Part shown: positions 5,534 to 62,428 of the stretch, piece after piece | Layout of the letters: each line of letters starts with the position of its first letter | Numbering within the stretch: position 1 is the stretch's first letter | Notes under the pieces: model-generated | What the model was told of the DNA's origin: nothing | Database searches by the model: none | What the model saw: only the letters and a program-made list of their open reading frames with translations | Position numbers and translations under genes: made by a program | Assembly: GCA_013359125.1 (NCBI GenBank) | Contig: JABWCR010000001.1 | Location: forward strand, 1-64,000 | Length of the DNA stretch: 64,000 bases | Direction of reading: 5' to 3' | From: Armatimonadota bacterium | GTDB taxonomy: Bacteria; Armatimonadota; Fimbriimonadia; Fimbriimonadales; GBS-DC

Positions 5534-6724
5534 TCAATCGGGCCATTTTAAAAGCAGCCTGACGCGGACCCTTGTCAACGGGTCGCTCGTCGCGTAAAAA
5601 TCGATCTCGACCAGATTGCCGAGCGGTTCGGTGTCCGATGGATAAACCGCTTTGACATAAATCGTCTGGCTTTCGCCGGGGCTCAGCGATCGAGCAGGGT
5701 TGGGCGAAATGCTGACCAGCCAGCCCGAGTTGGCCGCTTGCGCCGCATAGTGGGCCGGCTCGCGCGCCGTGTTGGCAAGTTGTAGCGCGATTTCGCCTCG
5801 AGATTTTTTTATAATCTGGACTTCGGCCGATGACGGTTGCACAACGAGGCCGGGATTGGATTGTCGAACGACCTCGGCGCTGTTGGGCGCGCTCCAGACG
5901 TTTGCCGCCAAAGTCGCATCGCCCTTTAGATAAAGATTGAAAAACTCGGTCAGAAGCCTGCGCGTTATTTGAAGCTGAACCGCTCTTGAGAGCGGGCCGC
6001 TGTCGCATCCAAACGAAGAAGAATCCTCAAACCCGCAGTGCCATCCGCCTTGAATGACGGGCAGCGTCTTTGGCGCAAAACCCGCGTCGTACATTCTTTG
6101 TCCGTTGGTCGAGACGGGCACAATGGTGTCGCTGCTTCCCGAAATGAGGCTCACGGGCGCGCGAATGCCCGGCATGGCCGCAATCGCAGAGGGGTTCGTC
6201 TCCGCGGCGGCGAGGTTGGCAACCGCGCGAATCCGAGAGTCGCCCGATGCCGCCAATAGGCTGCATCCTCCGCCCATCGAGTGTCCGCTCAATCCGAATC
6301 GGTCGATCGCTAACTGGCCGAAAAGCCACGATGCGGGGTTGCCGTTTTGTTGCTCCAACCAAGTCAAACATAGCCGCATGTCGTTTGCAAAGTTCGCATG
6401 GCTTGGGAAGAGCGAGCCTTCCGACTCGGAGGCGATTACGAAATAGCCGTGCGTCGCCAGATGCTCCAAAGTCGATTGATATCTTGTAACCGGTTGCAAA
6501 AAACCGTGGCCGAACGAAATCGCCGGGTAGGGCGCGCCGTCCGACCGATACGCAGCGCCGGACCCCCTGGCGAGAGCCGGGTAGAACAGGTAGGCGGAAA
6601 ATGTGGTCGAATTGGGGCGGGCGACGGAGACTCTCTGCCATCCGGCCGCGTAAGGGCCTGGCTGCGAGAGATCGGCCCAAGAGACGGCGGGCAACAGAGC
6701 AGCGAGCAGAAGAAGAACTCTCAT
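5534..6724 (-). CDS. Secreted alpha/beta hydrolase (dienelactone/PAF-acetylhydrolase-like)
   Basis: This 396-aa protein starts with a signal peptide (MRVLLLLAALLPAVSWADL). The hydrolase core has the oxyanion strand ISFGHGFLQP and the nucleophile elbow GLSGHSMGGG (S149). D199 (SGSSDTIVP) and H229 (QGGWHCGF) complete a plausible triad. A beta-rich C-terminal extension from about residue 290 resembles a DUF11-like or CARDB-like domain. The substrate is not predictable. A TATAAT box ends 6 nt before the ATG, so the mRNA may be leaderless. It converges on argD with a 1-nt gap. Confidence 0.8.
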   Translation of the reverse strand: MRVLLLLAALLPAVSWADLSQPGPYAAGWQRVSVARPNSTTFSAYLFYPALARGSGAAYRSDGAPYPAISFGHGFLQPVTRYQSTLEHLATHGYFVIASESEGSLFPSHANFANDMRLCLTWLEQQNGNPASWLFGQLAIDRFGLSGHSMGGGCSLLAASGDSRIRAVANLAAAETNPSAIAAMPGIRAPVSLISGSSDTIVPVSTNGQRMYDAGFAPKTLPVIQGGWHCGFEDSSSFGCDSGPLSRAVQLQITRRLLTEFFNLYLKGDATLAANVWSAPNSAEVVRQSNPGLVVQPSSAEVQIIKKSRGEIALQLANTAREPAHYAAQAANSGWLVSISPNPARSLSPGESQTIYVKAVYPSDTEPLGNLVEIDFYATSDPLTRVRVRLLLKWPD

Positions 6725-6730
6725 AGGCAG

Positions 6731-6736
6731 ATTATA
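6731..6736 (-). promoter_or_regulatory. -10 box for the alpha/beta hydrolase gene
   Basis: TATAAT on the minus strand is separated by six bases (CTGCCT) from the ATG at 6724. There is no Shine-Dalgarno in between, so transcription would start at or next to the start codon. Confidence 0.6.
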
Positions 6737-6770
6737 GCCTTAGATTGGAACCAAAAGCGGCCAAGGATGG

Positions 6771-6776
6771 TATAAT
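6771..6776 (+). promoter_or_regulatory. -10 box of the ssrA promoter
   Basis: TATAAT lies 8 nt before the first base of mature tmRNA (6785), consistent with transcription starting at or just before the mature 5' end. No convincing -35 hexamer is seen at 17 bp. Confidence 0.65.
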
Positions 6777-6784
6777 TATGTTGC

Positions 6785-7133
6785 GGGGGCGTCAGGGTTC
6801 GACAGAGACGCTTCAGGCGCAGGTTGCGAGCCGAGGCGCCGCTGGCCTCGTAAAAAAGCGGCAAACAAGAAGTGCGAATAACTATGCACTCGCTGCCTAA
6901 TTAAGGCAGCCGTCTCGCTGTGCCCCGGTCGGCCGGGTACGGCTCAGGCGTGAAAAAGGTCGACTTGCTTCCAAAGGCTCGGCTCTTGGCCCAGGAAGGA
7001 GATCAAGAGGGCTGGCGACGCAAAGCCCCGTTCGTCGGGACAGCGGCGCGAGACAATAAAGGCGATCTACGCTCGTAGAGGCTTGCGAATCTGACGGCTT
7101 TGGAAGGGGGTTCAATTCCCCCCGCCTCCACCA
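6785..7133 (+). ncRNA. ssrA: Transfer-messenger RNA (tmRNA)
   Basis: This 349-nt RNA rescues stalled ribosomes and tags the nascent peptide. The 5' acceptor arm GGGGGCG (6785-6791) pairs with CGCCTCC before the encoded CCA at 7131-7133. GGGTTCGAC follows the 5' arm and GGTTCAATTCC is the T-arm. Pseudoknot 1 is visible: GAGGC/GCCTC (6833-6837 with 6845-6849) and GCCGCT/AGCGGC (6838-6843 with 6857-6862). Eleven bases later, GCG at 6874 is the likely resume codon, giving the tag ANNYALAA and a TAA stop at 6898-6900. The tag is 8 residues, shorter than the 10 of E. coli. Confidence 0.96.
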
Positions 7134-9694: not shown

Positions 9695-9775
9695 CGTCAG
9701 CCCTCCTCCTGGTTACACAAATGTATTCTAAATTATACCCCGCCTCTGCGTCCAAATACAAGAGGTCGCGGCTGG

Positions 9776-9781
9776 TATCAT
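9776..9781 (+). promoter_or_regulatory. -10 box close to the rfbB start
   Basis: TATCAT ends 7 nt before the rfbB ATG at 9789. No Shine-Dalgarno is present between them, so a leaderless transcript is likely. Confidence 0.5.
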
Positions 9782-9788
9782 CTTAGCG

Positions 9789-10787
9789 ATGAGAAGGGTC
9801 GTGGTAACCGGGGGCGCGGGGTTTATTGGTAGTTGGCTCGTGCGCCGGCTCTTAAGCGACTACCCCGATTATCAAGTGGTCGTTTTGGACGCGCTGACCT
9901 ACGCTGGACGACGAGAAAATCTTGCTGCAATCGAATCCCAGATCGAGTTCGTTCACGGCGATGTGAGAGACCGGGATTGCGTCCGCAAGACGCTGGCAGG
10001 CGCTACCGATTTGCTCCATTTGGCCGCCGAAACCCACGTAGACCGGTCCATCGTCAATCCCGATAACTTTGTAACCACCGATGTATACGGGACTTATGTG
10101 CTCCTAGAAGCGTCGAGAGAGATCGAACGCTTTGTCTACGTCAGCACCGACGAAGTGTACGGCTCTATCGAAGAGGGCGAGTTTACGGAAGAATCGCCTT
10201 TGCGACCCAACTCGCCCTATGCCGCCAGCAAGGCCAGCGCCGACCTCATGTGCCGCGCCTTTTTCGTCACTTATGACCTGCCTGCTATCGTAACTCGAGG
10301 CAGCAATACGTTTGGGCCAAGGCAGTACCCAGAGAAAGTCTTGCCCCTGTTCGTTTCGAATGCTATCGAGGGCAAACCCTTGCCCCTTTACGGCGATGGC
10401 AGGCAGCGGCGCGACTGGCTGTACGTGGACGACCATTGCTCGGGCATCCTGACCGCATGGCAAAAAGGGAAGCCGGGGGAGGCCTATAACATCGGCGGAG
10501 GCAACGAGCGCGAAAACATTGAGATTGCGAGGCGCTTGCTGACCGTATTGGGCAAGCCTGAAAGTCTGATCAAGAGCGTCGCCGACCGGCCGGGTCACGA
10601 TCGTCGCTATGCTCTGAACTCGGATAAGCTGAAGGCGCTCGGCTGGGCGCCGAAAGCCGACTTCGAAAGTGCATTCGAAGAGACCGTGCGATGGTACGCC
10701 GAAAACCGCGATTGGTGGAAGGCCATCAAAGAGCGCCAGCCAGAGTTCAAGCAATTTGCCGATGCCTGGTACAAGGATAGAGCCTGA
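9789..10787 (+). CDS. rfbB: dTDP-glucose 4,6-dehydratase
   Basis: This 332-aa short-chain dehydrogenase/reductase makes dTDP-4-keto-6-deoxyglucose for surface sugars. The NAD site is TGGAGFIGSWLVRRL. The catalytic elements are YVSTDEVYG (Thr-Asp-Glu) and the Tyr-Lys pair in NSPYAASKASADLM. RDWLYVDDHC and YNIGGGNERENIEI are family signatures. The gene ends directly against a GTG start of a glycosyltransferase. Other rfb genes (rfbA, C, D) are not in the window. A related NDP-sugar epimerase/dehydratase is possible but less likely. Confidence 0.92.
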   Translation: MRRVVVTGGAGFIGSWLVRRLLSDYPDYQVVVLDALTYAGRRENLAAIESQIEFVHGDVRDRDCVRKTLAGATDLLHLAAETHVDRSIVNPDNFVTTDVYGTYVLLEASREIERFVYVSTDEVYGSIEEGEFTEESPLRPNSPYAASKASADLMCRAFFVTYDLPAIVTRGSNTFGPRQYPEKVLPLFVSNAIEGKPLPLYGDGRQRRDWLYVDDHCSGILTAWQKGKPGEAYNIGGGNERENIEIARRLLTVLGKPESLIKSVADRPGHDRRYALNSDKLKALGWAPKADFESAFEETVRWYAENRDWWKAIKERQPEFKQFADAWYKDRA

Positions 10788-12622: not shown

Positions 12623-13677
12623 AGGCCCTGTATCCTCTCCCGTACCTGGGCGTAGAACCAGTGGTTGTCGATGCGGCGGCGGTCCAGATCCATCTGAGGC
12701 GCGGGCAGGCCCAACAGATGCAAAAAGTGCGCCTCTAAAGCGCAGGCTGCCAAACGCAAATCCGATCGAACCAAGTACCGCGCCGAGCAGTCGGGCCATT
12801 TCACATCCCCCTCTGGCTTGGCGCAAGCCATAATCAGACGATAAGCTTCCTCCCGCCCCATCTTCAATCCGCCCCACTCGCTCTCAATGCGCAGGGCTGC
12901 CTCGTAATCTCGATCCAAGTACTCCCCAAAGCCCTTTTCAAAGGTGTCGATAAAGTCGGCCAGCGCAACGCCCGCCGCAACGCCAACTCCCCAAAGCATC
13001 CCGGCCGCCACGATCGCCGCATCGTCCGAAGCCCCGCGCCCGCGACGGTAGCGAACGAACATCGGCGCCACTCCGGGCTGCCCGTATTCGCCCAACAAGC
13101 CCTTCTGCCGATACTCGTCGATTCGGGCAAAATGCTCGCCGTGAGCCAGTTCTGCGCCGTCCAGCCCTAAACGATCCAGCGCCTCCAAAAAAACCGGCAG
13201 CATCCGACCCGCGCCGATGTCGCAGTGATAACGGCTCTCGGCCTCCGATCGCACCTCCGCCGCATCCCGCAAACCGCCCAAGTACAAGCCGCGCAGCACA
13301 TCGTCCGGATCAACGTCCAAAAAGTAGAACAAAGGCAACCGAAACAGCGGCTCGCCGTCCGAGTTCAGCAAGCTCCGTCCTGCCTTCCCACTCATCGCCA
13401 ATGTAGCGAACTGCTCTACTTCGTCGATCAAGTTGGCCTGCGCCTGCTGAACCGCCCGAGACGACAACCGTAGCGCCTCGGCAACGTCCCGAAAGGTCGT
13501 GTTCGGGTAGCGACGGTCGCCATATCGCACATGGCCCTCGTGCGAGTGGCTGAGCGCAGCGTACAGATGGATCATCTGGCGCGCCTCCTCGCCTATGCGC
13601 AGGTGCTCGGTCGCGGTCATCGCCTCGTAGTCCGCTCGGATCGCTTCGGCAGGGGCAATCTTAGAAGATCGGCGCAC
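12619..13677 (-). CDS. Conserved-looking protein of unknown function (352 aa)
   Basis: The family is not recognised. The protein is mostly helical, with an HTH-like stretch around residues 55-85 (FRDVAEALRLSSRAVQQAQ), no signal peptide and one hydrophobic Ala/Gly segment (IVAAGMLWGVGVAAGVALAD) near residues 220-240. Codon use resembles its neighbours. The start is a GTG with TAGACT ending 7 nt upstream and no Shine-Dalgarno. It converges on the DUF481 gene with a 4-bp overlap and is divergent from the HicB-like gene. A DNA-binding role is only a guess. Confidence 0.7.
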   Translation of the reverse strand: MRRSSKIAPAEAIRADYEAMTATEHLRIGEEARQMIHLYAALSHSHEGHVRYGDRRYPNTTFRDVAEALRLSSRAVQQAQANLIDEVEQFATLAMSGKAGRSLLNSDGEPLFRLPLFYFLDVDPDDVLRGLYLGGLRDAAEVRSEAESRYHCDIGAGRMLPVFLEALDRLGLDGAELAHGEHFARIDEYRQKGLLGEYGQPGVAPMFVRYRRGRGASDDAAIVAAGMLWGVGVAAGVALADFIDTFEKGFGEYLDRDYEAALRIESEWGGLKMGREEAYRLIMACAKPEGDVKWPDCSARYLVRSDLRLAACALEAHFLHLLGLPAPQMDLDRRRIDNHWFYAQVRERIQGL

Positions 13678-13684
13678 GTGGACG

Positions 13685-13690
13685 AGTCTA
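13685..13690 (-). promoter_or_regulatory. -10 box for the 352-aa protein gene
   Basis: TAGACT on the minus strand is 7 nt from the GTG start at 13677, the same sequence and spacing as in front of pstB (48522-48527). Confidence 0.5.
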
Positions 13691-13716
13691 CCTGTGCCGA
13701 AACGCCAAAACCGCTG

Positions 13717-19401: not shown

Positions 19402-19689
19402 TTAGGCAACCGGGGGCGCGCGGGGTACAGCCGGGCGAGCGTCTTCGACGCTCGCTTCTCGCTCATAAGCAAAATAGACGGGAGCGGGCTGTTCAATGAG
19501 GATCGTAAGGGCGCAGACATCGACGATAATGGGCGCGTCGACGATCTGGCTGTGAACGATACAGAGTTGGCACGAAGGCTTGGCCTCGTGGCCGTCATGA
19601 TGGATGAGGCCGTGCGCCAGGTCGCCGCCCAACAGGGCGACCGCCCAAACGAACGTCCAAACGACCATAATCCGGCGAAGGCTACTCAT
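19402..19689 (-). CDS. Small exported His/Cys-motif protein (DUF2946-like)
   Basis: This 95-aa protein has an N-terminal hydrophobic segment (MVVWTFVWAVALLGGDLAHG) followed by HHDGHEAKPSCQLC, a His/Cys cluster like those of DUF2946-type small periplasmic proteins. Metal binding is plausible but unproven. TATAAT ends 9 nt before the ATG with no Shine-Dalgarno. It stands alone between the dockerin protein and a 320-bp gap. Confidence 0.6.
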   Translation of the reverse strand: MSSLRRIMVVWTFVWAVALLGGDLAHGLIHHDGHEAKPSCQLCIVHSQIVDAPIIVDVCALTILIEQPAPVYFAYEREASVEDARPAVPRAPPVA

Positions 19690-19698
19690 GCCAAATGC

Positions 19699-19704
19699 AT
19701 TATA
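19699..19704 (-). promoter_or_regulatory. -10 box for the small His/Cys protein
   Basis: TATAAT on the minus strand lies 9 nt from the ATG at 19689, which suggests a leaderless mRNA. Confidence 0.5.
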
Positions 19705-19932: not shown

Positions 19933-19991
19933 GGATCGAGAGTTGGGCCCTGTAAGACGACTTTGTGCAATCGTAGGTACAAGGCAGTCGG

Positions 19992-19997
19992 TATACT
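19992..19997 (+). promoter_or_regulatory. -10 box for the herA-like operon
   Basis: TATACT ends 12 nt before the ATG at 20010, so any leader would be about 5 nt. No ribosome site is visible. Confidence 0.5.
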
Positions 19998-20009
19998 CTG
20001 CTACTCATC

Positions 20010-21938
20010 ATGGACGAGCGACCTATCGGACGGGTCATAGGGACGGAGAGCAAACCCAACACCGCTTACCGCTTTTACTTCTGGGCGCCGCTCGACGCCC
20101 GCATCGGCATCGGTTCGCTGGTCGTCGTGCGCCATGGCGAATTGAGAGTTTGGGGCGTGGTGGAGGAAGGCCACGGTTACAACGACGCTCAGACGCCCTT
20201 TTACGACTATTTGGGTTTTGACGGCGACCCGAATGCGTTGCCGCCCACTCAAAGGCCAGAGATGCGACTGTACGAGGCCGCCGTGCTGCGGCGCGACCCC
20301 GATTCGCCCGTCCAGCCCGTACCCATCGCGCCCGTCTATCTCTCGAGCGGCGAGGACGTCTCGCTTTCGCTGCGCATGGACGACATCCCCGAAGCGCGGC
20401 GCATTCCCGTCGGTGCGCACGACAACGACGGCGTTATCTCGCCGATTTGCGTCGATGCCGATTTTCTGATCGGCCCGGAAGCCGGGCATCTAAACGTTAC
20501 CGGCGCCAGCGGTTTAGCGGCGAAGACGAGCGCGATCCAATTTGTGCTGGCGTCCCTCTTTCAAAAGGCCGCTGGGAGCCTTGCTGTGGTCTGTTTCAAC
20601 GTTAAGGGCGGCGACTTGCTATTTCTGGACCAACCGCCTGCGGAAGCGCTGCCGGAAGAGGACTTGAAGATTTACGAGGCGGTGGGAATTGATCCAAAGC
20701 CGTTCGAGAAGGTTCGCTACTATGCGCCGCTTCGAGAGGATTTGGTGAATCTGGCTTCTTTGCGAACCCATCCCGATCTTGTCGGCGATGTCAGGCCCTT
20801 GCAGTGGGGCTTGCGCGAGGTGATGCGATACGCCGAGATCACGATGAATCGGGACGATGTGGATGCCCGCGCCGATGCTTTTTTGAGCTTCTTGCGCCAG
20901 CGCGTGGTCGATCCGGGCGAGTATGAATTTGACGATGGGTTCAAGTTGCCGGTTACGAACTTCGAGGAGCTTAAAGTCTGGTTCGACCGGGCGCTGCGCG
21001 AGATCGAGCAGAGCCGCGACGAGCGCTGGCATTCTCACGCCGTGCAGACGATACGAAAGGTCTTCAATCGCGTCAACAATCTCACCGTTCGCTATGCGGG
21101 GCTGGTGTCTTCGGGCAACGAGACGCTCGACTTGCCGTGGGGCGAGTTCGAGGATCGTGCGATTTACGCGATCGATATGGCCAATCTTCGAGCCGAAGCC
21201 CAAGATTTGATTTTTACCCGCGTGATCAGCGAGCTTCGCGAGCGGATGGAGAATCAGGACTTGGGCGTGGATCGGGTGGTTGTGGTGGTGGACGAGCTGA
21301 ACCAGTATGCCGAGTCGAGCGGGCAGGAGACTTACATTCTGCGCACTCTGCGCGACATATGCGCCCGGGGACGATATTTAGGCTTGACGCTGTTTGGCGC
21401 TCAGCAGTTTCGCAGCCGTATCGATCGGCAGATTGTGGGCAACTGTTCGACCGCCTTTTATGGCCGATCCGAGATGGAGGAACTGGCGCAGGCGCCCTAT
21501 CAGATATTTACGCCCGCTATCAAGGAGAAGTTGGGCACATTGAGGGTGGGCGAGATGTTGGTGCGGCATCCGTACTTTGCTCAACCGGTTTGGGCGCGCT
21601 TTCCCAGGCCGCCGGTGATGTCGGGCAAGGACGGCATGGCCAAATATCCGCCTGAGAGGCTTCCGTTTGCCGATGCGGTCGTCGCGCGGCTTCGAGCGGA
21701 GTATCCCAACCTAAGGCCGAACGAGGTTTACGACGCATTGTCGGGAAGACAGAACGATCAGGCGGCGGTCAACGCGCTTGTCAAGACCCTGAGCGCCAAG
21801 CCAAAAGCGGACGAGGCGCTGCGGTTTTTTGCCGGTTTGTTAGGGAAGCCCATTGTAGAAACCTCGCCTCGGCCGCCCATTGCCGACTATCCGACGGACG
21901 ACCCGACTTCGCTTTCGGAGGACGATCCGTTCAAATGA
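20010..21938 (+). CDS. HerA-like (FtsK/HerA superfamily) ATPase
   Basis: This 642-aa protein has a HerA-type architecture. An N-terminal HAS-barrel-like beta domain spans about 1-110. The Walker A-like loop is VTGASGLAAKTS (residues 163-174; K172, T173), a departure from GxxGxGK[ST]. Walker B is VVVVVDEL (D428, E429). The FGAQQFRSR and NCSTAFYGR segments correspond to the sensor and arginine-finger region. HerA rings pump or remodel DNA ends with a nuclease partner. The next gene, an Mre11/SbcD-like nuclease, overlaps by ATGA. No NurA or Rad50/SbcC is present. Confidence 0.83.
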   Translation: MDERPIGRVIGTESKPNTAYRFYFWAPLDARIGIGSLVVVRHGELRVWGVVEEGHGYNDAQTPFYDYLGFDGDPNALPPTQRPEMRLYEAAVLRRDPDSPVQPVPIAPVYLSSGEDVSLSLRMDDIPEARRIPVGAHDNDGVISPICVDADFLIGPEAGHLNVTGASGLAAKTSAIQFVLASLFQKAAGSLAVVCFNVKGGDLLFLDQPPAEALPEEDLKIYEAVGIDPKPFEKVRYYAPLREDLVNLASLRTHPDLVGDVRPLQWGLREVMRYAEITMNRDDVDARADAFLSFLRQRVVDPGEYEFDDGFKLPVTNFEELKVWFDRALREIEQSRDERWHSHAVQTIRKVFNRVNNLTVRYAGLVSSGNETLDLPWGEFEDRAIYAIDMANLRAEAQDLIFTRVISELRERMENQDLGVDRVVVVVDELNQYAESSGQETYILRTLRDICARGRYLGLTLFGAQQFRSRIDRQIVGNCSTAFYGRSEMEELAQAPYQIFTPAIKEKLGTLRVGEMLVRHPYFAQPVWARFPRPPVMSGKDGMAKYPPERLPFADAVVARLRAEYPNLRPNEVYDALSGRQNDQAAVNALVKTLSAKPKADEALRFFAGLLGKPIVETSPRPPIADYPTDDPTSLSEDDPFK

Positions 21939-25360: not shown

Positions 25361-25366
25361 TATTAT
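25361..25366 (+). promoter_or_regulatory. -10 box for mutY
   Basis: TATTAT (overlapping TTATAC) ends 8 nt before the mutY ATG at 25375, with no ribosome site. It lies in the 33-bp gap divergent from rpmE. Confidence 0.45.
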
Positions 25367-25374
25367 ACACGACC

Positions 25375-26472
25375 ATGGATCGGCTGCGCGCCTTGCTGTT
25401 GGATTGGTACGACCGCAACAAGCGGGCGCTGCCTTGGCGCGATTCGAACGATCCCTATCGCATTTGGCTGGCCGAGGCGATGCTTCAGCAGACGCAGACC
25501 GCGACCGTGCTTCCTTATTACGAGAGGTTCGTTCAGCGGTTCCCAACGATCCAAACTCTGGCCGATGCCGATCAGAGCGAGGTGGAGAAGGCGTGGGAGG
25601 GGCTTGGCTACTATTCGCGGGCGCGAAATCTGCGGAAGGCGGCGCGTATGGTGATGGAGGAGCTTGGCGGCGAGCTTCCCCAGGAGGCGAGCGATTTGCA
25701 GGGTCTGCCGGGCATTGGTCGATATACGGCGGGGGCGGTTTCTAGCATTGCTTTTGGTCGGCGTGAGCCTGTGGTGGACGGGAATGTGGAGAGGGTTATA
25801 TGCCGGGCGTTTGCGTTGGACATGCCGGCCGGGAGCGCGAGGAATCGTCGGTTGTGGGAGATTGCCGCAGAATTGGTGGATCCGGAGCGACCGGGGGATT
25901 TTAACCAAGCGTTGATGGAACTGGGCGCGACGGTCTGTACCAAGCACAATCCTTTGTGCGGCGAATGTCCTTGGCGCGATGCGTGCAAGGCGTTTGCCGA
26001 TGGGGTCGTTGAGGATTTGCCCAGGCCTAAGGAGCGGCCTGCAGGGGTGAGGATGACTGTGGCTTGCGCAATCGTGCGCCGAGGCGAGGAGATTGCGGTC
26101 GCGCGGCGCGTTGAGGGCGGGCTGTGGGGCGGTTTGTGGGAGTTTCCGCAGGCGAGCGTTTTTGAAGGGGAGGACGCTGAGAGCGCGGCGCGGCGGGCTG
26201 CTTTGGCTATCGGGCTGACGGCAGGTCGGTTGTCTGCAGTCGGACGGTTTCGGGCTCAGGCGACGCATCGGAGGATCGAGCTTTGTGCTTTTTTTGGGCT
26301 GATGGAGAGCGGCGAGATGGAGGCGGATTTCGGGCCGGAGTCTCAGAGAAGGCCGGACACTGTGCTGCCCGGGCCTTATTCGGATGCGCGTTGGGCATCT
26401 CTGGATGAACTCTCTTCGTTAGCGATGTCGGCTCCGATGCGAAGGGTTGTCAAGGCGATTTCAGGGGGCTGA
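25375..26472 (+). CDS. mutY: A/G-specific adenine DNA glycosylase
   Basis: This 365-aa enzyme removes adenine mispaired with 8-oxoguanine. It has E34 in WLAEAMLQQTQT, the helix-hairpin-helix LQGLPGIGRYTAGAV, catalytic D135 in VVDGNVERV, and the 4Fe-4S ligands C188, C195, C198 and C204 (C-x6-C-x2-C-x5-C). A C-terminal NUDIX-like 8-oxoG recognition domain starts near residue 225. Length is normal. Its 3' end touches the first repeat module at 26471. Confidence 0.95.
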   Translation: MDRLRALLLDWYDRNKRALPWRDSNDPYRIWLAEAMLQQTQTATVLPYYERFVQRFPTIQTLADADQSEVEKAWEGLGYYSRARNLRKAARMVMEELGGELPQEASDLQGLPGIGRYTAGAVSSIAFGRREPVVDGNVERVICRAFALDMPAGSARNRRLWEIAAELVDPERPGDFNQALMELGATVCTKHNPLCGECPWRDACKAFADGVVEDLPRPKERPAGVRMTVACAIVRRGEEIAVARRVEGGLWGGLWEFPQASVFEGEDAESAARRAALAIGLTAGRLSAVGRFRAQATHRRIELCAFFGLMESGEMEADFGPESQRRPDTVLPGPYSDARWASLDELSSLAMSAPMRRVVKAISGG

Positions 26473-27887: not shown

Positions 27888-27915
27888 GCCGTCCGCCGGT
27901 TCCTACGAGATTCGG

Positions 27916-27921
27916 TAGAAT
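27916..27921 (+). promoter_or_regulatory. -10 box for serA
   Basis: TAGAAT ends 5 nt before the ATG at 27927, the tightest spacing of the leaderless-type promoters in the window. Confidence 0.5.
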
Positions 27922-27926
27922 CGGTC

Positions 27927-29135
27927 ATGCCTGTTATACTGGTCGCCGACAAGTTTGAGAAGTCCGGTCTCGATGGTCTAAACGCGCTGGGCTGCGAGGT
28001 TGTCTTTCGCCCGGATGCAAAGGACGATGAACTGGTGGAAGCGGTGCGTTCTTCAAGCCCGTCGATCCTGATCGTTCGGGGCACAAAGGTCTCCGAAGCC
28101 GCCTTGTCCGCCGGTCCGCTAGAGTTAGTCGTGCGCGCGGGCGCCGGATACAACACTATCGATGTGGCCGCCGCGTCGCGTTTGGGCATTTTGGTGGCCA
28201 ACTGCCCCGGTAAGAACGCCATCGCGGTGGCGGAACTGGCTATGGGGCTGATTCTGTCGTTGGACAGGCGGATACCCGACAACGTCGCCGACTTGCGGCA
28301 GGGACGCTGGCGAAAGAAGGCCTACAGTGAGGCGAAAGGTCTCTATGGCAGAACCCTGGGGCTGATCGGCCTGGGGAATATCGGGCTGGAAACGCTCGCT
28401 CGCGCTAAAGCGTTCGGGCTGAAGTGCATCGCCTGGAGCCGTTCGCTGACTCCCGAAAAGGCGGAGCTCTTGGGGGTTGGGTTCGCAGAATCGCCCATTG
28501 ACGTTGCCCGGAACTGCGACATCGCCAGCGTGCACCTTGCTTTGAATAACGAGACGCGCAATCTCTTGGGACGCGACTTTTTTGCCGCAATGAAACCCGG
28601 CGCGTTTTTTATCAACACTTCTCGCGCCGAGGTGATCGATCAGGCTGCGTTGACGGACGCCGTGCGCGAGAAGGGCCTTCGTGCAGGGCTGGACGTGTTC
28701 GACGAGGAGCCGACATCGGGCGAAGGCGAGGTCGATGCGCCGATCTTTCAGATGGAAGGCGTCTACGGCACGCATCATATCGGCGCCAGCACCGAGCAGG
28801 CGCAGGAGGCCATCGCCGCCGAGACCGTGCGCATTGTGCGCGAATATCTGACGACCGGCCATGCGCCTCACGCGGTCAATTTGGCCAAACGCTCGCCCGC
28901 GGTCGCAATGCTGGCGGTTCGCCATTTCGATCGCGTTGGGGTCTTGGCGCACGTGTTCGATTGCTTGCGCGATGCGGGGATCAACGTGCAAGAGACAGAA
29001 AACGTCGTCTTTGAAGGCGCGGAGGCCGCGGTCGCTCGGATTCACTTGGATCGCAAGCCGGACGAGCGGGCGCTGAGCAGCATCAAAGAGTGCCAGGACA
29101 TCATCTCGATCAGCCTGGTCGATCTGAAGCCTTAG
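27927..29135 (+). CDS. serA: D-3-phosphoglycerate dehydrogenase
   Basis: This 402-aa D-isomer 2-hydroxyacid dehydrogenase makes 3-phosphohydroxypyruvate in serine synthesis. The NAD site is GRTLGLIGLGNIG. The catalytic Arg, Glu and His lie in NTSRAEV, DVFDEEP and GTHHIGAST. A C-terminal ACT domain (about residues 325-402) suggests feedback control by serine. It lacks the intervening ASB domain of long SerA proteins. No other serine genes are adjacent. Confidence 0.9.
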   Translation: MPVILVADKFEKSGLDGLNALGCEVVFRPDAKDDELVEAVRSSSPSILIVRGTKVSEAALSAGPLELVVRAGAGYNTIDVAAASRLGILVANCPGKNAIAVAELAMGLILSLDRRIPDNVADLRQGRWRKKAYSEAKGLYGRTLGLIGLGNIGLETLARAKAFGLKCIAWSRSLTPEKAELLGVGFAESPIDVARNCDIASVHLALNNETRNLLGRDFFAAMKPGAFFINTSRAEVIDQAALTDAVREKGLRAGLDVFDEEPTSGEGEVDAPIFQMEGVYGTHHIGASTEQAQEAIAAETVRIVREYLTTGHAPHAVNLAKRSPAVAMLAVRHFDRVGVLAHVFDCLRDAGINVQETENVVFEGAEAAVARIHLDRKPDERALSSIKECQDIISISLVDLKP

Positions 29136-29137
29136 GT

Positions 29138-29143
29138 TATAAT
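29138..29143 (+). promoter_or_regulatory. -10 box for the GspE/PilB-like gene
   Basis: TATAAT ends 7 nt before the ATG at 29151 and only 3 nt after the serA stop. Confidence 0.55.
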
Positions 29144-29150
29144 ATCCAGC

Positions 29151-30413
29151 ATGAATCCTGCCGGCACGCGCGGATCCGGCCGCGTGTTTCGCATCCTGAT
29201 GCGCCAGTCCGGAATGCTGCGCGAGATGGGCGGCGAGCTGTCGCAAGCGGTCCAACGCGTCGATTGGATGTTTATACAGGCCCTCGAACAGGGCGTTTCG
29301 GACATTCACCTGCACCCCGAACGCACCGCGCTCCGCATTCGATTCCGAGTGGACGGGGCGCTTCATGAGTTTGAGGTCATCAACGACTTGGAGCTGACTC
29401 AGGCCATGCTGGCGCGCATCAAGCTGGCGGCCAACATGCACCTGGACGAGAAGCGCGACACGCAAGACGGGCGCATCGACATGGAGTATCTGGATCGCAA
29501 GCTGAGCGCTCGCGTCTCGTGCATTCCGTCGCTCAATGGCGAGCGGATCGTCATGAGAATTTTGGACCCGGCTCAGATGCGGGTCGATCTGGACAAATTG
29601 GGCATGCCGCCCGACGTGCTGCAGGGCTGGAAGCGGTCGCTGATGACGGCGCACGGGATGCTGGTTGTAACCGGCCCAACGGGTTCTGGAAAAACTTCGA
29701 CCCTCTATGCATCGATCAACACGCTGGACAGAAAACGCCGTAACATTGTAACGGTCGAGGATCCGGTCGAGTACGAGTTTAGCGACAATATCATGCAGGT
29801 GCCGGTTTCGGAGAAGATCACCTTCCCCCGCGCCCTAAGGGCGATGCTGCGGCACGACCCGGACGTGATCATGATCGGCGAGATTCGAGACGGCGAATCG
29901 CTGGAGATCGGTATTCAAGCGGCCTTGACGGGGCACTTGGTGCTTTCGACTCTGCACACCAACGACGCCGTGGAGAGCGTCAGCCGAATGATCGACATGG
30001 GCGCCGAGCCTTACTTGATCGCCGCGGTGCTCCGCTGTGCGATGGCGCAACGCTTGGTGAGGATGATCTGCGCGGAGTGCCGCACTCAAGGCACGGCCAC
30101 GCCCGAAGAGCTGGCCGCGCTGAAGATTCCACCAGAAGCGGCCGCCCAGACGAAGGTAGCGGTCGGTCGCGGCTGCCAATCGTGCCGGGGCACCGGTTTT
30201 CGGGGTCGAGTGGCGATTATGGAGCACATGAACGTTTCGGCGGCGCTGCGCGAGGCTATTGTAACCCGCGCATCGGGCGACGACGTGGCGGCGATCGCCA
30301 AGAAAGAAGGCATGACGACGATGCTGGAAGACGGGCGGGACAAGGTGTTGCGCGGCGTAACGACGCCGGGAGAAGTGATCCAGGCCGTCTATGCCGGTTT
30401 GGCGCCTGGTTAG
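29151..30413 (+). CDS. GspE/PilB-family secretion or pilus ATPase
   Basis: This 420-aa motor ATPase powers pilus or type II secretion assembly. The N2 domain has SDIHLHPERTALRIRFRVDG. Walker A is VTGPTGSGKTST (K181, T182). The Asp box is VTVEDPVEYEF, Walker B is DVIMIGEIRD, and a His box LSTLHTND follows. A CAEC ... CQSC zinc element occupies about residues 310-345. The MshEN N-terminal domain of longer PilB proteins is absent. It may serve the pseudopilins of this genome. Pilus platform genes are not nearby. Confidence 0.9.
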   Translation: MNPAGTRGSGRVFRILMRQSGMLREMGGELSQAVQRVDWMFIQALEQGVSDIHLHPERTALRIRFRVDGALHEFEVINDLELTQAMLARIKLAANMHLDEKRDTQDGRIDMEYLDRKLSARVSCIPSLNGERIVMRILDPAQMRVDLDKLGMPPDVLQGWKRSLMTAHGMLVVTGPTGSGKTSTLYASINTLDRKRRNIVTVEDPVEYEFSDNIMQVPVSEKITFPRALRAMLRHDPDVIMIGEIRDGESLEIGIQAALTGHLVLSTLHTNDAVESVSRMIDMGAEPYLIAAVLRCAMAQRLVRMICAECRTQGTATPEELAALKIPPEAAAQTKVAVGRGCQSCRGTGFRGRVAIMEHMNVSAALREAIVTRASGDDVAAIAKKEGMTTMLEDGRDKVLRGVTTPGEVIQAVYAGLAPG

Positions 30414-38356: not shown

Positions 38357-39241
38357 CTATCGATAAGCGATATCGTCTCTCAGCCTAGCAACGGCCACGG
38401 CTGTAAAATCTTCTTCTATTTCAAATCCCACAAACCTGCGACCAAGCCTCACCGCTGCGACGCCGGTCGTGCCGCTGCCGCAGAAGGGGTCCAGCACCAG
38501 GTCGCCTGGTTTGCTGGCGGCCTGCACGATGCGCATCAAGAGTTCCTCCGGTTTCTGGGTCGGATGTTTGCCGTATCGCTTTTCCCATGGTTTAGGCGGC
38601 TGGATGCGCCAAAGGCTCAGCATCTGCTTGCCGGGCGCCGGGTCGCCGATCGACTTCATCGTTTCGTAGTCAAAATAGTGCTTCGCTTTTTTGTCCTTCT
38701 TGGCCCATAGCACCGTTTCGGTAGCGTGGGTAAAGTAGCGGCACGAGAGGTTGGGCGGCGGATTGACCTTGAACCAGGCGATGTCGTTTAGGATCGCGTA
38801 GCCCAGCTGCTGCATGGCAAAGCCGACGCTGTAGATGTTGTGGTGGGTACCCGAGACGAAGATCGTGCCGTTAGGCTTCAAAACCCTTCTGCACTCGCGC
38901 AGCCACTGCACGTTAAAATCGTGCACCTCGTGGAAGCTTCGCGCGGCGTCCCATTGGCCTTTGTCCACCGAGACCATCTGGCCCGCATGGCACGTGATGC
39001 CGCCATCGGACAGAAAGTAGGGCGGATCGGCGAAGATGAGGTCGAACGCCTCGCTGCGGCACTGTTGAAGCAGTTGAAGCGCATCGCCCGCATAGAGCCG
39101 GACGCCCTTATCGGCGTGATAGAAGGAGGGCTTCGGCGCGTCGTACTGGGCGTTCCCGTCCGCCAGGATCAGCGCGCCTTTGTCCAAAAGTTCTTCTTTG
39201 GAAAGGAAAAGGTCGTCCGCGGGCGGGGCAGTCCCAAGCAT
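38357..39241 (-). CDS. dpnA: DpnA-like adenine-N6 DNA methyltransferase (GATC)
   Basis: This 294-aa beta-class N6-adenine methyltransferase has the catalytic motif DPPY (residues 72-75) before the SAM motif DPFCGSGTTG (251-260). The segments GQMVSVDKGQWD, NLSCRYFTHATETVLWAKK and GKHPTQKPEELL closely resemble DpnA, the second methylase of the DpnII system. GC content is host-like, unlike the endonuclease. TAGGAT ends 8 nt before the ATG. No DpnM (alpha-class, Dam-like) gene is in the window, so this enzyme must protect DNA alone or with a distant Dam. Confidence 0.92.
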   Translation of the reverse strand: MLGTAPPADDLFLSKEELLDKGALILADGNAQYDAPKPSFYHADKGVRLYAGDALQLLQQCRSEAFDLIFADPPYFLSDGGITCHAGQMVSVDKGQWDAARSFHEVHDFNVQWLRECRRVLKPNGTIFVSGTHHNIYSVGFAMQQLGYAILNDIAWFKVNPPPNLSCRYFTHATETVLWAKKDKKAKHYFDYETMKSIGDPAPGKQMLSLWRIQPPKPWEKRYGKHPTQKPEELLMRIVQAASKPGDLVLDPFCGSGTTGVAAVRLGRRFVGFEIEEDFTAVAVARLRDDIAYR

Positions 39242-39244
39242 CGG

Positions 39245-39283
39245 GATCGATCCTACCAGATCGGATCAAGGGGGGTGAAGATC
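39245..39283 (-). promoter_or_regulatory. Methyltransferase promoter with five GATC sites
   Basis: The minus-strand -10 box TAGGAT (39255-39250) precedes the dpnA-like ATG by 8 nt. GATC occurs at 39245, 39249, 39259, 39264 and 39280, with the palindrome GGATCGATCC covering the -10/start spacer. These are the predicted target sites of the enzymes encoded downstream, so methylation could feed back on transcription. Confidence 0.5.
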
Positions 39284-39760: not shown

Positions 39761-39766
39761 TATAAT
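39761..39766 (+). promoter_or_regulatory. -10 box for the exporter/MoxR/DUF58 operon
   Basis: TATAAT ends 12 nt before the ATG at 39779, leaving at most about 5 nt of leader. No ribosome site is visible. Confidence 0.55.
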
Positions 39767-39778
39767 GGCGCATCGATC

Positions 39779-41611
39779 ATGCGACGCATCGCGATGGCGC
39801 TCGGCTTCTGTCTGTTCGCCTGTTCGGCAACGCTCTCGCAGCAGGTTGAGATCAGCGCTCAGCCGGTCTTCGGTCGCGCTCATATGGCCGTATTCAGAGA
39901 GCCGATGGAGCCGCTCTGGATCGTCCTCCAAAACAAGGGGCCGAGCCTTAAGGGCTATATCGAGGCAAACTCCGGCTCGAACCTCTATCGAATGCCCGTC
40001 GATCTGCCTTCCGGTTCGACCAAGCGCGCGCTCATCTATCCTCCGGGCGGCCTCCCCGACAGCGTCGCCTATGTCGCCGGGCGCCGGCGATTCGTCGTTA
40101 AATCGGCCTACGCTCCGCCTCAATTAGGGATACCGTTAGTGGCGATCGGCGATGAGTTCGGCGGTTTGGAGGCTTTTGCGGCGTCGTCCGTTGGGACGGA
40201 CGCATTTGCAAAGTGGATTCCCGATTATGTGCGGCCAGAGAACGCGCCCGATCGATCCATCGGCTATGCCGGCCGTCCCGTACTGATCGTCGGCGCTGGC
40301 GCCGAAAGGCTGGCCGAGGCTCAATGGGGCGCGATCCTGCTTCATACGGCGAGGGGAGGCAGGCTTTATCTATTGGGCGGTCCGGGCGCGGTCTATTTGT
40401 CGGTGCCCGGGTTGGCCGACGCGCTCCCGGTCGAAAGGCTGCGCGTAAAGAGCGGCCTGAATCTGGCGCCCTTGGCGCGAGCTTTGCAGGGCCGACCGTT
40501 TTCCGACCGGGCGACCGGCACCGTCGGCGCGTTGCGTTCGGGAGCGGCGCTGCTGGCGGGGACGGATGAAGAGTGTTTGATGGCCGTTCGATCGTATGGT
40601 CTTGGAACGGTTTGCTTTGTAGCCGTCAGCCTTTGGGATCGCCCTCTGAGCCAGTGGCCTGACAAGCACAAACTGATCGATGTCGCGAACTGGAGGGAAG
40701 CCGAGCGCGTTTCGATCGAGAGTCTGGCAACCGCTACCTATTGGTCGACTAGCGCCGACACCGTCGCCTCTAAAATCACCTTGCCGTCGGCCAATACGGT
40801 CGTGGGGGCGCTCTTTGCTTACTTTGTGCTCGTCGTGCCCGTGAATTACTTTGTGCTAAAGAGACGAAAAGCCCTTCATAAGAGCTGGCTCACGGCGCTG
40901 ATCTGTTCGCTGGCGTTCGTCGGGGTTGCGTATGCCCTGATGGCCGATCTGCGCTCTCTGCATACAATGGTCAAGACGCAAGGCGTTCTCATCGTTCCGA
41001 CTGGGGCCGAGATCGCGCTGCTTTATGCTACGGGCACGATATTCTCGTCTGCGCAGGGTCGATACGAGCTGAAGGCGCCTGCCGCAGAGATGTATCGAGC
41101 TGATGATTCGGCTTACGCGCCTGTGCTCGCCAGTGTCCGCGTGATCGACGACGGGCGCGACATCTCTGCACAGGTAGACGCTAGAAACCTCTCCTTTATG
41201 CGGATGCATTTGGACGGCCGCATCGATTTGGGGGGCAAGGTTTCGGCCACGGTACGGCACGTCTCTGGAAAGCGGTATCGAGGGAGCATCGTCAACGGCA
41301 CGACTTTTGAACTGCAAAACGCGACCGTTATCTATCCGAACGTTTCTATGGGCTCTCGGCCATTGACTATTCGCCCTGGAGAGACCGTAACGTTCGAGGC
41401 TGATCTAACCTGGGCGAGCGGGGCGCAAGTCGATCGACAGCATCCTTCGAGCCCTCAAGAAGCGTTTGGCGCGGCAGGCGATCGGCTCCCGCGCTTCGTC
41501 GCCCTTCGCGCAAACATCAATCTGAGCGATCCCTTGGTCAAAGCGGAAGGCCACTATTCGGAACAGGAAGTCGTCGCCTACCTTGTTGTGCCCGTGGGGC
41601 GAACCCAGTGA
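39779..41611 (+). CDS. Large exported membrane protein, unknown (operon head)
   Basis: This 610-aa protein has a signal peptide (MALGFCLFACSATLSQ), a beta-rich domain to about 160, and a Rossmann or GATase1-like stretch around 165-215 (RPVLIVGAGAERLAEAQWG, ILLHTARGGRLYLLGG). Two transmembrane helices lie at about 340-400 (VVGALFAYFVLVVPVNYFVL; WLTALICSLAFVGVAYALMA), and a C-terminal beta domain follows. The layout resembles large Bat/DUF58-associated membrane proteins. The stop overlaps the GTG of an ABC permease. Function unknown; probably part of an envelope complex with the genes that follow. Confidence 0.75.
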   Translation: MRRIAMALGFCLFACSATLSQQVEISAQPVFGRAHMAVFREPMEPLWIVLQNKGPSLKGYIEANSGSNLYRMPVDLPSGSTKRALIYPPGGLPDSVAYVAGRRRFVVKSAYAPPQLGIPLVAIGDEFGGLEAFAASSVGTDAFAKWIPDYVRPENAPDRSIGYAGRPVLIVGAGAERLAEAQWGAILLHTARGGRLYLLGGPGAVYLSVPGLADALPVERLRVKSGLNLAPLARALQGRPFSDRATGTVGALRSGAALLAGTDEECLMAVRSYGLGTVCFVAVSLWDRPLSQWPDKHKLIDVANWREAERVSIESLATATYWSTSADTVASKITLPSANTVVGALFAYFVLVVPVNYFVLKRRKALHKSWLTALICSLAFVGVAYALMADLRSLHTMVKTQGVLIVPTGAEIALLYATGTIFSSAQGRYELKAPAAEMYRADDSAYAPVLASVRVIDDGRDISAQVDARNLSFMRMHLDGRIDLGGKVSATVRHVSGKRYRGSIVNGTTFELQNATVIYPNVSMGSRPLTIRPGETVTFEADLTWASGAQVDRQHPSSPQEAFGAAGDRLPRFVALRANINLSDPLVKAEGHYSEQEVVAYLVVPVGRTQ

Positions 41612-48493: not shown

Positions 48494-48527
48494 TTAACAA
48501 TTCCTTAACAATTGCGAAGGGTAGACT
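48494..48527 (+). promoter_or_regulatory. Pho box plus -10 box in front of pstB
   Basis: TTAACA occurs at 48494-48499 and 48505-48510, two repeats with an 11-bp period and 5-bp spacing, the layout of PhoP-type boxes. TAGACT at 48522-48527 is a -10 box ending 7 nt before the ATG at 48535. The boxes lie where an activator would replace the -35. Together they predict phosphate-starvation control and a leaderless mRNA. Confidence 0.65.
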
Positions 48528-48534
48528 CGATTCG

Positions 48535-49359
<825 letters not shown>

Positions 49360-61598: not shown

Positions 61599-61604
61599 TA
61601 GAAT
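61599..61604 (+). promoter_or_regulatory. -10 box for the transketolase half gene
   Basis: TAGAAT ends 8 nt before the ATG at 61613, with no ribosome site. Confidence 0.5.
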
Positions 61605-61612
61605 CAAGCCCC

Positions 61613-62428
61613 ATGTCCATCGCCGAACTCCAAGAGACCGCCCGCCGCATGCGCGTCCACTGCATCCGTATGATCGCCAACGCCAACTCCGGTCATCCGG
61701 GGGGCTCGCTTTCTGCCGCAGACATTGTAGCCGCTCTGTTTTTTTATGCCATGCGCTGGGATCCAAAAGACCCGCACTGGTCCGCTAGAGACCGCTTTAT
61801 TCTCAGCAAGGGGCATGGATGTCCGGCGCTTTACGCCGCTTTGGCCGAGGCAGGCGTGCTGGCCGAGCAGGAACTGCTTACCTTTCGAGTCATCGATAGT
61901 CGATTGCAGGGCCATCCTTCTAGAAAAGATTTGCCCTATTGCGAGGCCTCCACCGGCAGTCTAGGTCAGGGGTTGTCGATCGCGATTGGCGAGGCATTGG
62001 CCGCGCGAAACATGCCGGAGCGTTACCGCGTCTACACGCTTATTGGCGACGGCGAATCGCAAGAGGGCCAAATCTGGGAAGCCGCCGCGGCCGCATCGCA
62101 CTTCAAAGCAGACAATTTGACCGCGATCCTTGACTACAACCGATTTCAGCTGGACGGCGCCATCGGCCAGATCATGTCGATCGAGCCTGTGGCCGATAAG
62201 TGGCGCGCCTTTGGATGGAGCGTGAAAGAGATCGACGGGCACGATATGGAGCAGATCGTCGAGGCGCTCGACTGGGCAAAGACCGTCTCTGACAGCCCCC
62301 AAATGATTATCGCCCACACGGTCAAAGGCAAAGGCGTCAGCTTCATGGAAAACGATAACGAGTTTCACGGCAAAGCCCCCACGCCCGAGCAGACCGAACG
62401 AGCGCTGGCCGAGCTGGGCGCGGAGTGA
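61613..62428 (+). CDS. Transketolase N-terminal (PP-binding) subunit
   Basis: This 271-aa protein is the thiamine-diphosphate PP domain of a split transketolase: NSGHPGGSLSAADIVAALFF, LSKGHGCPALYAALAE, ASTGSLGQGLSIAIGEALAA and the ThDP motif GDGESQEGQIWEAAAAAS. Split transketolases normally have a second gene (Pyr domain and C-terminal part) directly downstream. Here the next gene is an unrelated lipoprotein, so the partner must be elsewhere. Confidence 0.9.
   Translation: MSIAELQETARRMRVHCIRMIANANSGHPGGSLSAADIVAALFFYAMRWDPKDPHWSARDRFILSKGHGCPALYAALAEAGVLAEQELLTFRVIDSRLQGHPSRKDLPYCEASTGSLGQGLSIAIGEALAARNMPERYRVYTLIGDGESQEGQIWEAAAAASHFKADNLTAILDYNRFQLDGAIGQIMSIEPVADKWRAFGWSVKEIDGHDMEQIVEALDWAKTVSDSPQMIIAHTVKGKGVSFMENDNEFHGKAPTPEQTERALAELGAE

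Follow-up and report, generated by a model that had tools for sequence, protein, structure and literature searches.

In the Armatimonadota genome studied here, a Pribnow-like box, commonly preceded by two guanines, ends a few nucleotides before the start codon of many genes. The signal is genuine, it favors operon heads, and a quarter to two fifths of the heads is a fair estimate of its extent. Judged from the sequence, these boxes are very probably the -10 elements of sigma-70-type promoters, with RNA starting about 7 nt after the box, so that the mRNAs would be leaderless or nearly leaderless and lack a Shine-Dalgarno (SD) sequence. That a large minority of the genes of this organism yield such mRNAs is, in our view, well supported but not proven.

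The window is the whole stretch of 64,000 nt, bases 1 to 64000 of contig 1, and belongs to a genome of 2.82 Mb (G000), of which 776 kb were analyzed with our own codon-model gene caller, a simple program whose choice of starts is imperfect. The RpoB of this genome places it in the class Fimbriimonadia of the Armatimonadota, the best match being that of isolate TGS_ARM5 (66%) and the others reaching about 53% or less; the anti-SD is intact at the 16S 3' end (GGATCACCTCCTTT). G000 and a second genome, G003, both belong to a family that we call f1; this and the other family labels (f3 and so on) are those of the analysis and not formal names. A divergently transcribed gene was counted as a head, and a gene with a same-strand gap of <40 nt as internal. 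An unsupervised mixture model with SD, -10, and no-signal classes was fitted without operon position; its null rate at heads was 8 to 16%, varying with the settings. For a noncircular test, starts were picked without any -10 model and compared with dinucleotide-shuffled controls.

The original prediction listed twelve TANNNT boxes in the window, 5 to 12 nt before starts and free of SD sequences, and all twelve were found, each with an open ORF and none with an SD call (0/12). They are given here in coordinate order, with the distance from box end to start codon. TATAAT at 6731..6736(-) lies 6 nt before the ATG at 6724(-) of an alpha/beta hydrolase (PETase-like), GGTATCAT at 9774..9781 lies 7 nt before the ATG at 9789 of an NAD-dependent epimerase, and GGTAGACT at 13685..13692(-) lies 7 nt before the GTG at 13677(-), with a model posterior of only 0.49. 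TATAAT at 19699..19704(-) follows, 9 nt before the ATG at 19689(-), and then GGTATACT at 19990..19997, whose distance of 12 nt to the ATG at 20010 would make this gene near-leaderless and not leaderless. TATTAT at 25361..25366 stands 8 nt before the ATG at 25375 of a MutY-like protein (HhH-GPD plus NUDIX), the G003 orthologue of which is likewise box-led. The next ones are GGTAGAAT at 27914..27921, 5 nt before the ATG at 27927 of a D-2-hydroxyacid dehydrogenase, TATAAT at 29138..29143, 7 nt before the ATG at 29151 of a T2SSE ATPase, and GGTAGGAT at 39250..39257(-), 8 nt before the ATG at 39241(-) of an N6/N4 DNA methylase. The last three are TATAAT at 39761..39766 (12 nt; ATG at 39779), GGTAGACT again at 48520..48527 (7 nt; ATG at 48535, ABC ATPase), and TAGAAT at 61599..61604 (8 nt; ATG at 61613, N-terminal half of a transketolase). 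The upstream neighbor is on the opposite strand at 8 of the 12 genes, and 6724(-) adjoins the divergent tmRNA gene. The T2SSE ATPase, transketolase, and ABC ATPase genes follow a same-strand gene after gaps of 15, 23, and 44 nt, respectively, and are not clear operon heads. The window has 18 called divergent heads; the box was the best call at 10 of them (one at posterior 0.49), while 5 were SD led and 3 had no signal.

Relatives of gene 20010 (L126, L129, L133, and L135) carry TATAAT about 23 nt before a candidate ATG and, in the interval, a GGTGA-like stretch; compared with the 12 nt of gene 20010, a switch between near-leaderless and short-leader forms is possible. Elsewhere on contig 1, at start 72753, a back-to-back pair of box-led genes shares a gap of about 42 bp.

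The boxes could be promoters of genes whose actual start codons are located further downstream, which would give the mRNAs ordinary leaders. Start 39241(-) is indeed doubtful, because the alignment with a relative's protein begins only at residue 52, and many genes have several possible start codons. However, the spacer peak persists when the choice of starts involves no -10 model, and the epimerase and the dehydrogenase both match their families from residue 4, so that start 9789 is well supported. Moreover, in the spacer-6 class, a pyrimidine precedes the ATG in 47/51 genes. Purines at this position amount to 3/26 and 1/25, compared with 145/262 and 109/230 among SD-led genes (P = 1.5e-5 and 8e-6), as would be expected if RNA started at the A of AUG. 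We therefore consider displaced start codons unlikely. For spacers of 9 to 13 nt (62/138 calls), no clear initiation site was seen in G000, and these genes may therefore be short-leader and not leaderless.

We then turn to the frequency of the boxes. The mixture model recovered from the 776 kb of G000 a Pribnow box, TAtAaT, with spacers mainly of 6 to 13 nt, peaking at 6 to 7 and tailing to 13; the signal was sharper in G003. By this model, 82/218 heads (38%; shuffled null, 34, or 16%) but only 38/288 genes with gaps of <40 nt (13%; null, 19, or 7%) were box led. An earlier fit gave 76/218 (null, 18) and 35/289 (null, 17), respectively, and on held-out contig 1, 32 of 84 heads were called (null, 12.6). 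With starts picked without a -10 model, TANNNT at spacer 5 to 13 occurred at 27.5% of the heads (shuffled, 11.6%) and at 10.1% of the gap-<40 genes (7.0%), and TANMMT (M being A or C) at 18.8% (2.8%) and 7.0% (1.6%), respectively. The stricter form GGTAN(A/C)(A/C)T stood 5 to 13 nt before 28/218 heads (12.8%; shuffled, 0.2, or 0.1%) and 12/287 gap-<40 genes (4.2%; shuffled, 0.0). There are 178 sites of this form in the 776 kb, and the distance to a following gene start is 5 to 13 nt for 58 of them, 14 to 25 nt for 11, and 26 to 60 nt for 27; control patterns in the same distance scan gave 0 to 1 sites at 5 to 13 nt. TANNNT is a loose pattern, and the 11.6% in shuffled sequence is what accidental matches in AT-rich stretches before starts would provide. 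Against this, the observed 27.5%, the 12.8% versus 0.1% for the GG form, the lack of such a peak at control patterns or distances, and the identical element at tRNA and tmRNA genes make composition a very unlikely source of the signal. Chance is refuted for the box set as a whole, while individual boxes without GG could still be due to it.

The preference for heads is thus clear, TANNNT being not equally frequent before heads and internal genes, but leaderless-type promoters are not "the rule for operon heads," as had been proposed: many heads are SD led, and three of the twelve cited sites do not lie at clear heads. Likewise, the clear GGAGG sites announced for genes inside operons hold for about half of them (SD calls at 142/288; null, 62) and not for the remainder; at heads, SD was called at 62/218 (null, 31). 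Box and SD occurred together at 1/41 box-led heads, a near-exclusion that is partly trivial because the two search windows overlap. At SD-led heads, the GG-box lies mostly 26 to 60 nt upstream. A clean division of the two modes by operon position, which was also part of the original prediction, was not found, since the GG form precedes internal genes as well. Concordance of the mode between orthologues was only moderate (odds ratio, 2.9; P = 0.014), and among orthologues switching between head and internal position, a switch of mode was not significant and at best suggestive (9 versus 4; P = 0.27).

The reading of the boxes as -10 elements, proposed from the beginning, is borne out by genes that are not translated. 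GGTATAAT at 6769..6776 ends 8 nt before the tmRNA gene (6785-7133), where it is a promoter element without a translation start, and a TATA-like box was found 4 to 18 nt upstream of 16/19 tRNA/tmRNA genes (shuffles, 2.05), 12 of them with GG (shuffles, 0.09). Because GGTATAAT precedes genes without a start codon there, the box is an element of transcription. Within 60 bp (6725-6784), two boxes drive tmRNA and 6724(-) divergently. Neither this tmRNA promoter nor the GG had been part of the original prediction. In aligned boxes, the frequencies of G at -2 and -1 relative to the box were 0.70 and 0.58 in G000 and 0.87 and 0.94 in G003. The classical extended -10 (TGn) was rare (16/138 and 12/124 boxes), with T at -15 at only 0.17 and 0.11. 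No enrichment of a -35 (TTGACA 16 to 19 nt upstream of the box) was seen at mRNA promoters; TTGACA-type elements at tRNA/tmRNA promoters (5/19 versus 1.7 in shuffles, maximum 6) were not significant. That the box is instead an AT-rich, non-SD signal for the ribosome, acting at a distance from the start that overlaps the SD distance, is hardly credible given GGTATAAT before tRNA/tmRNA genes, whose 5' ends have no initiation codon, and boxes 26 to 60 nt before SD-led heads.

We thus propose that the box is a -10 element read by a sigma-70-type RNA polymerase, the core element in family f1 being GG-TA(t/g)A(a/c)T in mRNA promoters without -35 information, and that transcription would begin about 7 nt past it. 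A start codon 6 to 8 nt past the box would leave no leader or almost none, with translation initiating at the 5' end without an SD. A start codon 9 to 13 nt past it would probably leave a leader of 1 to 7 nt, too short for an SD. SD sequences would serve genes without a promoter of their own and heads with a box further upstream.

The likely primary sigma factor of G000 (G000:C22:37219-38547(-); L178/L180; WWIRRAIARAI...IPVYVAE) carries, in regions 2.4/3.0, the substitutions Q437R, T440A, and H455Y (E. coli numbering). The positions concerned are those of the -12 and extended -10 contacts. We rejected these residues as a sufficient cause of the GG, as they are also present in f3, whose boxes lack it, and in G050 and G081, which show little or no box-adjacent signal. 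The three substitutions are common to the sampled f1, f3, f12, f25, and f27, and the residues are canonical in f13, f22, and f35. In the G000 sigma factor, region 3.0/3.1 is in addition followed by some 30 inserted residues.

To see how far the signal extends, we counted TATAAT-N6-9-ATG against TATAAT-N26-29-ATG in whole genomes. An excess was found in G000 (70/27), G003 (98/30), G019 of f3 (34/11), G021 of f5 (27/6), and G042 of f17 (160/35), but not in G050 (37/37), which we take to be Chthonomonas calidirosea, or G020 of f4 (82/87). The signal in G042, from a distant family, is very strong and mostly at spacer 6 among the sites listed. In the small samples from G005 (80 kb), G050, G081, and G099, the mixture model failed to settle on a -10 motif, which is only weak evidence of absence. 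GG precedes the adjacent TATAAT in 33 to 77% of cases in f1, in 1/160 in f3 (six genomes), in 6/130 in f5, and in 22 to 32% in 7/8 genomes counted outside the order, compared with roughly 8% expected from base composition alone. One f3 genome, G127, has a sharp spacer of 6 without GG. Given these counts, together with G127 and the spacer of 6 without GG in Deinococcus deserti, box adjacency extends beyond f1, the strong GG is largely confined to it, and f1 differs also in its broad spacer. Tentatively, and with less than even confidence, f1 may have a promoter grammar of its own, a -35-free GG-TATAAT core 6 to 13 nt before starts, in which ribosomes initiate on exact 5'-AUG mRNAs and also on those with leaders of 1 to 7 nt, the latter a class largely avoided by Deinococcus and the sister family f3.

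The patchiness within the phylum (clear in f1, f3, f5, and f17; absent in G050) offers natural comparisons on the gain and loss of leaderless translation, and the promoter rule would improve start-codon annotation in the many uncultured genomes of this phylum. A search of open-license full texts for leaderless expression in Armatimonadetes gave nothing relevant, although an earlier report may exist. With this reservation, our data add the phylum, in silico, to those with leaderless-type expression.

Several known systems resemble the one described here. The extended -10 promoter is TGnTATAAT; f1 boxes share with it the conserved G at -14 and function without a -35, but have G or A instead of T at -15, and G at -13. 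A 2021 paper quotes a figure of 21.6% for the bacterial species that are predicted to use leaderless transcription. The available text of Zheng et al. 2011 (PMC3160421) places the first T of TANNNT about 12 bp before the start of leaderless genes, holds leaderless expression possible only for transcript-proximal genes, and gives TAtaaT for medium-GC genomes; its phyla list lacks Armatimonadetes, and the GG flank is not mentioned there. The box-led genes of G000 are similar to these TA-led genes in their Pribnow-like box near 6 nt, their lack of an SD, and their enrichment at proximal positions. According to Zhong et al. 2025 (PMC12340547), Deinococcus-Thermus has leaderless mRNAs, with a -10 only a few bp away from the ORF and weak dependence on other promoter sequence, which is the closest mechanism to the G000 boxes. 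In agreement with the Deinococcus-like pattern first suggested, D. deserti, analyzed by the same method as a positive control, gave the same kind of signal. Its box, however, is TAYNCT-like, with a sharply preferred spacer of 6 and no GG (4/31), whereas the G000 family is spread over 6 to 13 nt. What is new here is the GG, and not TGn, before the box, mRNA promoters devoid of a -35 signal, and a spacer wider than that of Deinococcus.
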